Part shown: positions 3,262 to 7,680 of the stretch, in pieces
Layout: each line of letters opens with the position of its first letter
Numbering within the stretch: the first letter of the stretch is position 1
DNA from: Nitrospirota bacterium
GTDB lineage: Bacteria > Nitrospirota > Thermodesulfovibrionia > Thermodesulfovibrionales > UBA6898
Length of the DNA stretch: 64,000 nucleotides
Assembly: GCA_016214855.1 (NCBI GenBank)
Contig: JACRMT010000008.1
Span: forward strand, 1-64,000
Direction of reading: 5' to 3'
Notes under the pieces: model-generated
Databases searched by the model: none
What the model saw: only the letters and a program-made list of their open reading frames with translations
What the model was told of the DNA's origin: nothing
Program-made: the position numbers and the translations under genes

Positions 3262-4608
3262 ATGTCATACAAAGCATGGTTCCAATGCATCAATCCGAAC
3301 TGTAACGAGAAATATCCTCTCAATACGGTCATTTACCGCTGCAAGGGCTGCAACTCACTGCTCGAGGTCCGGCATGACATGCAGGCCCTCAGCCACAGGA
3401 GCGGCACAGCATGGATGAAGCTCTTCGAGGACCGTTATAAGTCAACGCAATGGCCTTACGGCTCGGGTATCTGGGGCAAGAAGGAATGGGTACTTCCGGA
3501 GATCGATGACGAGAATATCGTCTCTCTTTATGAGGGCGGTTCGAATCTGTTCTGGGCAGAGCGCTTCGGCAAGATGGTCGGGATCGACAACCTCTGGTTA
3601 AAGCTTTGCGGTAACTCCCACAGCGGCTCCTTCAAGGACCTTGGCATGACCGTGCTCGTTTCGATGGTCAAGCAGATGATCAGCGAAGGAGCGCCGATTC
3701 AGGCGGTCGCCTGTGCATCTACGGGCGATACCTCTGCTGCGCTGGCCGTATACTGCGCTGCAGCGGGAATTCAGTCCGTGGTGCTGCTTCCCAAGGGAAA
3801 GATCTCCATTGCCCAGCTCGTTCAGCCCATTGCCAACGGGGCTCTGGTGCTCCAGCTCAACACGGATTTCGACGGCTGTATGGAGGTTGTCAGGGAGATA
3901 ACCAAAGACGAGACCATATATCTTGCCAATTCAATGAACTCGCTCCGCATCGAGGGGCAGAAGACCGTAGGTATTGAGATCGTCCAGCAGTTCGACTGGG
4001 AAGTGCCTGACGTGATCGTTATTCCGGGCGGCAACCTCGGCAATGTCTCGGCCCTCGGCTCCGGTCTGCTGATGATGCGGGACCTAGGCCTCATCACCAA
4101 GCTGCCGCGCATCGTAGTTGCTCAGGCAGAACGTGCAAATCCGCTCTATCGCTCGTACCTCAAGAACTTCGAGTCCTTTGAACCCATGCAGGCGCAGAAG
4201 ACCCTCGCGAGCGCCATTCAGATCGGCAATCCGGTCAGCATCGAAAAGGCGATCCGCACGCTCAGGCAGTTCGACGGCATTGTGGTCGATGCCACGGAGC
4301 AGGAGCTTGCCGATGCCTGTGCGCTCGGCGATATGACCGGCATGTTCAACTGCCCTCATACGGGTGTTGCGCTTGCAGGCATGATCAAGCTGCTCAGGGA
4401 AGGGAAGATCGACCGGTCAGAGCATGTGGTGGTCATTTCGACCGCACATGGCCTGAAGTTCACGGATTTCAAGGTCGCCTATCATGAAGGGACGCTGGAC
4501 TTCCCCTGCCGTTTTTCGAACAAACCGATCGAACTGCCGCCGTCTGTGGATGCCGTAAAGGAAGCGTTGCAGCATGCACTCAAGAAGAGGAGAGATATAC
4601 ATGCCTGA
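3262..4608 (+). CDS. thrC: threonine synthase
   Basis: Catalyses O-phospho-L-homoserine to threonine with pyridoxal phosphate. The 448-residue protein begins with a four-cysteine zinc ribbon (C9, C14, C27, C30), a feature of one threonine synthase subgroup. The PLP lysine is K125 in [12 protein letters not shown], and the phosphate-binding loop region is [19 protein letters not shown] 3262 is chosen because AAGGTGG lies directly upstream; the GTG at 3256 is inside that site. The stop overlaps the next gene by eight bases, so thrC and the following Cys/Met-metabolism gene are probably translationally coupled. That pairing joins two branches that start from homoserine derivatives. Confidence 0.92.
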
Positions 4609-5809
4609 CGAGTCGTCAAACGCAAAGAACTGGAGGCCTGCCACCCTTGCCATTCACGGAAAGGGCAGACTTCCCAAGGCCCATCACGCAGTATCCACGC
4701 CGATCATGCATACGTCGAACTACTATTTCGATACTGCTGATGAGGTTGAAGAGTTCATGCGGGAGAAGGGGCAGGGCAGGGTCATCCGGGAGCATGAATA
4801 CGCCCGGTACGGCAACCCCACCCAGCAGGAGTGCGAACGCAAACTCGCTGCAATAGAAGGGGCTGAAAGGGCCGTACTCTATTCATCCGGCATGGCTTCG
4901 GTGCTGCTCGTGATCATGACCTTCATGAAGCCCAAAGGACATATTATTTTTACCAGCGACTGCTACCGCCAGACCCGAGACTTTGCGATCAACTTTCTCG
5001 GCAAGTTCGGCATTGAATACTCGATTGTCGATCCTGCGGCCGAGGCCATCGAAAAGGCGGTAAGGCCGGAAACGAACATCATATTTACCGAGTCGCCGAC
5101 GAATCCTTATCTGCGCGTGCTCGATATCCCGGCGATCGTAAAGATTGCAAAGGAACGCAGGATACTGACGATCATCGATGCCACGCTTGCCACGCCGTAT
5201 AACATCAGGCCCATCGAGCTCGGCGTGGACGTAGTCATCCACTCTGCCACAAAGTATATGGGCGGCCACAATGATCTGATGGCAGGTGTTGCCCTCGGGT
5301 CTGCGGCATTGATGACCGATCTTTACAAGATGCAGCGCATGATCGGGGCCACCCCGGGTCCGCTCACCTGTTTTCTGCTCGAGCGCGGCCTGAAGACCTT
5401 TGGCATGCGCATGGAACATCACAACAGGGCCGGCCTTGCGGTCGCGCAGATGCTCGAAGCCCATCCGAAGATCGAAAAAGTCTGGTACCCGGCCCTTGCA
5501 TCGCATCCGGACCACAAGATCGGTATGGAGCAGATGAAGGGCTTTGGCAGTGTTATCAGCTTTCTGGTGAAGGGCGGCAATACGGAAACCAGAAAGTTCA
5601 TTGATGCCCTGGAACTCTTTCTGATAACGCCGAGTCTCGGGGGCAGCGAGAGCCTGGTCACGCAGATGTGGGCCATGTCCTTCTTCGACTATTCTGAAAA
5701 ATACCGTCAGGATATCGGTATGGTGGACAACCTGGTCCGTCTGGCCCTGGGTCTTGAGGATGTGGACGACCTGATCGCTGATCTCCAGCAGGCACTGGAC
5801 AGGATTTAA
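4601..5809 (+). CDS. Cys/Met-metabolism PLP enzyme (cystathionine gamma-synthase or O-acyl-homoserine sulfhydrylase type)
   Basis: A fold-type I PLP enzyme of 402 residues. The PLP lysine is K218 in [11 protein letters not shown], and the cofactor Asp is in the [10 protein letters not shown] block. The active-site Tyr-Gly-Asn region ARYGNPTQQ and the C-terminal [10 protein letters not shown] are typical of this family. Members make cystathionine or homocysteine from activated homoserine, or cleave cystathionine; sequence alone does not separate these. The context with thrC, with which it overlaps by eight bases, suggests a role in methionine or homocysteine synthesis. ATG 4601 follows AGAAGAGGAGAGATATAC, a clear ribosome-binding site. 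It is a little longer than E. coli MetB (386). Confidence 0.87.
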
Positions 5810-5907: not shown

Positions 5908-6321
5908 TTACTTTGGCACTGTCGGAAATCCGGCTTTCTCCCATGCGAGCCATCCGCCGCGAAGCACATATACATTGGTATATCCGAAATCTCTCAGCCT
6001 GAGCGCCACACCGACGCTTGTCTCCTGGTTCTTTCAGGCGCAGTACAGAACGATCTTCTGGTCAGGGGCGTAGAATCCATCGAGCTGCTCGACCTCTTGC
6101 GCATCGAGCCTGATGGCTCCTCTGATCTTTTGATCACTTCGACGCCAGTCCTTGCTGTACCGCGCATCGAAAAGAACCAATCCCTTTTCATCAAGAATGG
6201 AAAGCAGTTCCTCCTGGCTCATCCACCTTATCCTGCTGTCAGATTCCGGCGCAGTCTGGGCTGTGCAGGAGATGAGGATAAGGACCGCTACGATCACTGA
6301 CCAAAGAGCAGGTATCTTCAT
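5908..6321 (-). CDS. rhodanese-like lipoprotein, probable selenoprotein (in-frame UGA at 6034-6036)
   Basis: Read straight through, the frame stops at a TGA at 6034-6036. The same frame continues for 42 more codons to a TAA at 5908 and completes a rhodanese domain. Reading UGA as selenocysteine gives a 137-residue protein with YCA-U-KNQETS at the active-site loop (Cys94, Sec96). The downstream part has the usual GVALRLRDFGYTNVYVLRGG and final W-x-x-AGFP. In many rhodaneses of the YCACPNE type, Cys occupies the Sec96 position. A 6-bp stem with a five-base GGUGU loop starts 16 bases after the UGA, as expected for a bacterial SECIS. The N-terminus is a lipoprotein signal (LILISC, Cys19). ATG 6321 has AAAGGAGAA before it. 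Alternatives are a recent nonsense mutation or a sequencing error. Confidence 0.75.
6002..6018 (-). promoter_or_regulatory. SECIS-like stem-loop downstream of the in-frame UGA
   Basis: On the mRNA, AGCGUC pairs with GGCGCU (five Watson-Crick-like positions plus a U-G pair) around the loop GGUGU. The loop begins 22 bases after the UGA, within the 16-37 base window known for bacterial SECIS elements, and has G in the first two loop positions. This is what SelB would need to insert selenocysteine. The match is by eye and no folding energy was computed. Confidence 0.55.
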
Positions 6322-6414
6322 CGCTGTTCTCCTTTTCATGTCTCCATCATAGCGCACGATTGCTGTAAGGTAAAGTGGTTACCTGACCATGCTGAACTGA
6401 CAGGACCGGATCTG

Positions 6415-7596
6415 TTATTGACCCATATCCGGGAAAAGAACAGATACTGTTGTCCCTGATCCCTCATTACTCTGGACCCTGATGATGCCTCTCTCTCCTT
6501 CCACAATGCTCTTTGCGATGGGGAGGCCGAGGCCAGTCCCTTTCCGCGATATACTGCCGGAGAAAAAAGGTTCAAAGATCTTCTCGATATTATCGGCTGA
6601 AATGCCTCTGCCCGTGTCCTGGATCCTGACCCTGGCATAGGGCGCTCCCTTGACCATCTCCCTGTCCAGAAGCAGAGAGAGCGTGCCTCCCTTCGGCATG
6701 GCATCGAGGGCATTCTCTATAATTCTCTCCAGTGCCTCCCGGATCTGGTCCTTATCGACCCGTATGACCGTGCCGTCTCCGTAGGCTTTCTGAACCGTGA
6801 TCGCCTGCTGACGAATGCTCTCCTCCCATGTCTTCAGCGCTTCGTCGAGAATGCTGCGGATATCATGATCTTCCATGAGAGGACTTCTGGTGCGAGAAAA
6901 AGCCAGCACATCGCGAAGAATACTTTCAAGTCTGCTCACTTCTTCTATGATAAATTCAGCATACTTTTGTTCTTTTTCGCTGTCAGCGATCTTCCTGAGC
7001 CTCCTGGCGAACCCGCCAACAGCGGTGAGGGGGTTTCTGATCTCATCAGCCACATTTGCGGCGATCCTGCCCAGGGCCGAAAGCTTTTCAACCTCAGCCA
7101 GTTGTTTTTTGAGCCTCTCTTTTTCCTCTTCCGCCTTTTTCCGTTCTGTTATGTCCCTGATCGCTCCGACTGCAACGATACCTCCTTCAGTCTCGAGCGG
7201 ACTCAGACTGATATCCGCCGGGAACTCCGTGCCGTCTTTTCTCAGTCCGTAAATGGTCAGATTTGTGCCCATGGGCCTGACCCGCGGCTGTTCGAAATAA
7301 AGGGACACATTAGCGCGATGTCTGTTTCGATACCGCTCAGGAATGAGAAAATCGAGGTGCCTTCCTATCAGTTCGTCTTCTGTATAGCCGAAGAGCTGAC
7401 TGAGCTGGGCGTTCAGGAGTACGATCTTTGAATCTTTGCTCACAAAGACCATGGCGTCAGGGGCGGACTGGAGAAGTTGTTCATAACGCTTCTGGACATT
7501 GAGAAACTCGGCGTGGCACTGCTCCAGATCAAAGGACCTCTGCCGCATTTCGGACAGGTCTTTCTCTAACTCCTCGCGACGCTTATATCTTTCCAT
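6415..7596 (-). CDS. PAS sensor histidine kinase with Asp in place of the phospho-acceptor His
   Basis: The 393-residue cytoplasmic protein has an N-terminal coiled coil, a PAS domain (about residues 40-155, with FGYTEDELIG), a HisKA dimerisation segment and a complete GHKL ATPase: N box ERIIENALDAMP, G1 DTGRGIS, F box FEPFF, G2 GTGLGLPIAKS. The H box reads NVADEIRNPL where kinases of this group have A-H-E-I-R-N-P-L. The codon at 7045-7047 is GAT rather than CAT, so residue 184 is Asp. Autophosphorylation should fail unless another residue serves. ATG 7596 is chosen because GAAGGAG precedes it; the upstream GTG at 7620 has none. No membrane segment and no response regulator are adjacent. Confidence 0.88.
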   Translation of the reverse strand: MERYKRREELEKDLSEMRQRSFDLEQCHAEFLNVQKRYEQLLQSAPDAMVFVSKDSKIVLLNAQLSQLFGYTEDELIGRHLDFLIPERYRNRHRANVSLYFEQPRVRPMGTNLTIYGLRKDGTEFPADISLSPLETEGGIVAVGAIRDITERKKAEEEKERLKKQLAEVEKLSALGRIAANVADEIRNPLTAVGGFARRLRKIADSEKEQKYAEFIIEEVSRLESILRDVLAFSRTRSPLMEDHDIRSILDEALKTWEESIRQQAITVQKAYGDGTVIRVDKDQIREALERIIENALDAMPKGGTLSLLLDREMVKGAPYARVRIQDTGRGISADNIEKIFEPFFSGSISRKGTGLGLPIAKSIVEGERGIIRVQSNEGSGTTVSVLFPDMGQ

Positions 7597-7680
7597 AGCT
7601 AACGCTCCTTCATAGCTCACCCGCCTTAAATGCAGGGACTAATTCTTATTGCGCGAGAGCATGACCGGCCAAGCCAAACC

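Follow-up and report, generated by a model that had tools for sequence, protein, structure and literature searches.

Does the single in-frame TGA of a rhodanese gene in a Nitrospirota bacterium interrupt the gene, or does it encode selenocysteine (Sec)? We closely examined this question for a locus in the first 64,000 nucleotides of contig JACRMT010000008.1 (assembly GCA_016214855.1), here called the window. A preliminary description had given the correct coordinates of the locus without stating a strand. The plus-strand reading of positions 5908 to 6321 was rejected, as it encodes no rhodanese; the gene therefore lies on the minus strand, where an open reading frame runs from an ATG at 6321-6319 to a TAA at 5910-5908 and yields 137 amino acids with read-through (Table 1). 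Translation and the extent of the Pfam domain bear out that the TGA at 6036-6034 (codon 96) is the only stop in an otherwise complete rhodanese frame and that it follows two residues after the catalytic-loop Cys, Cys94, both as originally proposed. The loop accordingly reads LYCA-U-KNQETS. The flanking genes, named from their sequences, are a cystathionine-type PLP enzyme (window positions 4574-5809, plus strand, convergent) and a PAS histidine kinase (6415-7620, minus strand), and the flanking gene order is kept around the nearest homologue (L025).

Table 1. Features of the rhodanese locus (window coordinates)
Feature	Position	Strand	Basis
Predicted Sec-containing rhodanese CDS, 137 aa, TGA codon 96 as Sec	5908..6321	-	Translation; NF041203; PF00581
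Shine-Dalgarno-like AAGGAG (within AAAGGAG), ~7 nt 5' of the ATG	6329..6334	-	Sequence
Hydrophobic N terminus and lipobox LIS-C19, predicted lipoprotein signal peptide	6265..6321	-	Sequence reading
Rhodanese domain, residues 35-129, spanning the TGA on either side	5935..6219	-	Pfam; predicted structure; Foldseek
Cys94, canonical rhodanese catalytic-loop position	6040..6042	-	Cys or Sec, invariant in 39 aligned members
TGA codon 96, predicted to be read as Sec	6034..6036	-	TGA in every aligned member; 80/80 scanned loci
Putative apical hairpin of a bacterial SECIS element, 6-bp stem, loop GGUGU	6002..6018	-	Covariation; bSECIS criteria

The translated protein matches the Pfam rhodanese domain (PF00581, residues 35 to 129, E = 1.3e-15) on both sides of the TGA, and its predicted structure has a pLDDT of ~97 across this domain. 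Using Foldseek, the predicted fold was matched to solved rhodaneses, including E. coli GlpE (1gmx, E = 8e-6) and YgaP (5hbo, E = 1.6e-5). These two proteins have the rhodanese fold in common with the one studied here, at ~20 to 24% identity, but lack a CxU/CxC pair in the loop; that of GlpE is CYHGNS. Furthermore, the protein scored 131.8 bits against the NCBIfam model NF041203 (rhodanese_LYCAU; cutoff, 115 bits) over residues 14 to 137, and the Cys-x-Sec motif of this family is present in the catalytic loop as LYCAU at positions 92 to 96. Since the model's cutoff is passed and CxU rhodaneses are listed in selenoproteome reviews, the gene belongs to a known kind: the CxU rhodanese appears among predicted selenoproteins as "form 3" (PMC13188914) and as "COG0607 form 2" (PMC9312934), and is credited to Zhang and Gladyshev 2005 (PMC13188914).

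We then analyzed how far the TGA is conserved. Among 60 relatives, each above-threshold match contains a TGA in frame; one of them (L048) is a rhodanese of a different type. The TGA was present in all 27 above-cutoff NF041203 matches from Nitrospirota and in 69 of the 76 from the phylum of Desulfopila. A genome-wide scan covering one genome per species (84,980 species), with a closer set of members as the query, returned 80 loci, all with TGA at the Sec96 codon. In an alignment of 39 members, codon 96 is TGA throughout, and position 94 is invariably Cys or Sec. The nearest homologue, which is congeneric and has the same TGA, shows 77% protein identity overall. Compared with this homologue, the 41 codons 3' of the TGA have a dN of 0.10 and a dS of 0.90 (dN/dS, ~0.11), similar to the codons on its 5' side (dN, 0.12; dS, 1.43). 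Judged by these substitution rates, purifying selection acts on the part of the gene that follows the TGA.

These data bear on two explanations that do without Sec. A nonsense mutation or an assembly error could have turned an ordinary rhodanese gene into a pseudogene, real or apparent, as a single base change converts a Cys codon (TGY) into TGA. However, the TGA occupies the same codon in dozens of species from two phyla, and because it is so conserved and the dN/dS indicates purifying selection, a pseudogene or base-call error is excluded for practical purposes and an indel is very unlikely; covarying silent sites in the hairpin described below count against this explanation as well, and we consider its probability negligible. 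Alternatively, translation could truly stop at the UGA and yield a product of 95 residues ending in ...LYCA, and translation Table 11 does provide such an open reading frame (GTG start, 107 amino acids). This product would be devoid of the second half of the fold, yet that half shows both conservation and purifying selection, which makes a true stop very improbable.

The machinery for Sec insertion was sought in the same genome, and selA, selB, selC and selD were all found. SelA (E = 3e-185) adjoins SelB (E = 4e-112), SelD (E = 1e-102) has an in-frame TGA of its own, and tRNA-Sec was detected with 70.9 bits by a covariance model and was also called as tRNA-SeC by ARAGORN. By its gene content, the organism is thus predicted to be able to read UGA as selenocysteine.

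A SECIS element was sought 3' of the TGA. The hairpin AGCGUC-GGUGU-GGCGCU was found at 6018-6002; its loop begins 21 nt past the UGA, so that the SECIS-type stem-loop of the preliminary description is present at a slightly different spacing from the 22 bases given there. Published bSECIS criteria are a loop of 3 to 9 nt, a stem of 4 to 16 bp, a G in the first two loop positions, a spacing of 16 to 37 nt and an energy of at most -7.5 kcal/mol (PMC13188914). With a 5-nt loop, a 6-bp stem, a G in the first two loop positions, 21-nt spacing and a minimum free energy of -10.0, the hairpin lies within all of these limits. Its free energy was not unusual when compared with shuffled sequence in two windows (z = +0.2 and -0.4), and no Rfam family matched at the rhodanese locus. 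As the energy is no better than that of shuffles, the evidence for the hairpin is covariation, not stability. Across 39 sequences, none of 500 shuffles matched the observed covariation score or the percentage of paired cells, a count that is not a probability because the hairpin sequences are related by descent. The third bases of codons 102 and 106 pair with each other, and among 104 distinct members this pair is U-A in 60, C-G in 34, U-G in 4 and unpaired in 6. Codon 102 is Ser (AGT or AGC) in 103 of the 104 members and codon 106 is mostly Ala; wobble changes at these two codons mostly leave the protein unaltered and thus suggest that selection acts on the RNA. The hairpin beside UGA96 can, as predicted from these features, be used by SelB and tRNA-Sec of the same genome.

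Taken together, the locus very probably encodes a true selenoprotein, a CxU rhodanese of family NF041203, with UGA96 translated as Sec. The gene product shares with this family the CxU motif, the Sec position, an export signal, the single-domain layout and a score above the curated cutoff. It differs in that the genus-level clade examined here has Lys-Asn-(Gln/His)-Glu after the Sec (Thr-Asn-His-Glu in one member), whereas most family members have x-x-Glu, and in being a lipoprotein by motif, which is true of only about a tenth of the family. None of these differences is essential. TsoB (NF045694, a rhodanese/DsbD fusion-like selenoprotein) and forms 1, 2, 4 and 5 of PMC13188914 likewise combine the rhodanese fold with Sec in or beside the loop, but the Sec is placed elsewhere (UxxS, UxxG, UxxxxU) and the domain contexts are different. 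In viral contigs scanned with the family, no relative was found, and thus there is no sign of phage carriage; plasmid records gave distant Cys forms only.

The N terminus had been described as that of a lipoprotein, and a motif-based reading agrees, with a LIS-C19 lipobox behind a hydrophobic stretch: LISC at residues 16 to 19 matches the lipobox pattern [LVI][ASTVI][GAS]C. A similar motif occurs in the four closest homologues and in 10 of 107 family members overall, while the majority have a different signal peptide or lack one. The product is therefore predicted to be exported and lipid-anchored at Cys19, so that its rhodanese domain would face outward from a membrane, in the periplasm or at the cell surface. 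That membrane-attached Cys-x-Sec rhodaneses are hardly described, as the preliminary description put it, applies to the anchor, since the word "lipoprotein" is absent from PMC13188914, and not to the CxU kind, which is already catalogued. In the literature searched, we found no functional or biochemical study, and no substrate, of the CxU rhodanese family.

Relatives with Cys at position 96, which had been anticipated with the loop YCACPNE, do exist. YCACPNE or YCACPHE is found in VTT/DedA-rhodanese fusions from Nitrospirota (L080, L082, L083) and from Burkholderia and Cupriavidus records, and two single-domain orthologues (L203 and L204) have YCSCD, which continues as YCSCDSE in L203. Among close relatives, Cys at 96 is the exception and Sec the rule. 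Position 96 is Ser in three paralogues from the phylum of Desulfopila (L206 to L208) and Ala in one relative (L209), and because a few members have these residues, selenium chemistry appears dispensable in some paralogues. In 10 of 107 members counted, position 94 is also Sec (UxU). Loci with such a double TGA are L032, L045, L071, L077, L079, L081, L089, L104, L116, L134 and L138; here, the extra TGA lies 6 bases ahead of the conserved one and replaces the catalytic-loop Cys codon.

How could the two residues work together? We tentatively propose, with somewhat less than even confidence, that the protein acts as a persulfide/polysulfide or thiol oxidoreductase and not as a plain thiosulfate:cyanide sulfurtransferase. 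Cys94 in the rhodanese loop would accept sulfane sulfur or a substrate thiol. Sec96 would then attack the Cys94 adduct and free sulfide or the reduced substrate, leaving a Cys94-Sec96 selenenylsulfide, which may be reduced by a thioredoxin-like or Dsb-type protein of the envelope. The homologues with Cys at 96 and the UxU members with Sec at 94 suit such a redox pair.

The main rival is a Sec-containing protein in which Cys94 would carry out catalysis as the corresponding Cys does in ordinary sulfurtransferases, with thiosulfate or a persulfide as the donor, and Sec96 would only protect Cys94 from oxidation or tune it. The rhodanese fold itself, with GlpE and YgaP of E. coli among the matches, and the constant Cys or Sec at position 94 are consistent with this role. 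On the other hand, Sec96 is retained in nearly all members at high cost, and Cys94 is replaced by Sec in the UxU forms, which suits a redox pair without requiring one; we regard a merely protective Sec as somewhat unlikely. The rhodanese superfamily also includes arsenate reductases, and the protein might accordingly be a seleno-reductase for an oxidized envelope substrate (peroxide, sulfoxide or oxyanion) instead of sulfane sulfur. Redox roles are expected for most predicted bacterial selenoproteins (PMC9312934), but no substrate clue was found, and the neighboring histidine kinase and cystathionine-type enzyme point to none, so that we judge this reading distinctly unlikely.

The same rhodanese subfamily, with the loop YC-x-C/U-PNE, also occurs in VTT/DedA-rhodanese fusions (annotated as "DedA family protein/thiosulfate sulfurtransferase GlpE"). 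Unlike in the gene studied here, the rhodanese of these proteins lies behind a polytopic VTT membrane domain. The fusions carry Cys in some records from Nitrospirota, Burkholderia and Cupriavidus and Sec in others (L219 to L221), and a Sec form (L219, YCTUPNE) and a Cys form (L082, YCACPNE) share 49% identity over 308 aligned positions. For L219 and L220, NCBIfam yielded no model matching the VTT/DedA-CxU fusion itself.

In 17 of the 80 scanned loci, a permease gene of ~420 codons lies upstream on the same strand, and its product weakly matches profiles of the APC superfamily. This divergent APC-superfamily-like permease is found in Desulfobacterota, at L118 (2667-3929, plus strand; AdiC profile, E = 2e-6) and 16 other loci. 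Downstream of the rhodanese and on the same strand, a gene for a VTT-domain membrane protein was observed at L118 (4618-5313), L120 (1288-2001), L130 (5464-6156) and L136 (3902-4591), followed at L118 by a mercuric-reductase-like flavoprotein.

In the source genome, a TGA is present in 4 of 10 rhodanese-domain matches, and the loop is arranged in at least three different ways. Three further rhodanese loci of this genome, each with a foldable hairpin after the TGA, are L226 (G000:C4:105683-105973, plus strand), with an in-frame TGA in FYCRGVGUGLS; L228 (G000:C18:106964-107242, plus strand), with IAYUGSGVRS in a rhodanese that is joined to a long C-terminal domain; and L229 (G000:C23:784-1047, plus strand), with FYCGGVTURLS in a multi-rhodanese protein. 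L048 (G006:C37), the different rhodanese type mentioned above and identified by similarity, has an in-frame TGA that places the Sec elsewhere, in FYCRGAGUGLS.

The terms UxU and DedA are absent from the main text of PMC13188914, and the UxU forms, the Sec-containing VTT/DedA fusions, the APC-type partner and the four TGA rhodaneses of one genome are apparently missing from PMC9312934 and PMC13188914, although we do not claim that they are new. What is seen as the CxU family might belong to a larger selenium-sulfur redox module of the envelope. This module would handle sulfane sulfur at the membrane through the Cys/Sec pair and comprise lipoprotein, secreted, VTT-fused and UxU forms, to which many Desulfobacterota would add an APC-type permease as a dedicated partner. 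We put this forward as a rather doubtful extension of the proposed redox role.

Standard annotation would truncate the gene at the UGA, while sequence data could hardly support the reading of codon 96 as Sec more firmly. Since Sec is kept at one position in two phyla with few replacements by Cys, selenium must pay for itself in this protein. The UxU forms, the VTT fusions, the neighboring permease and the rare Cys orthologues offer handles on the role of the Cys-x-Sec pair in the rhodanese fold.
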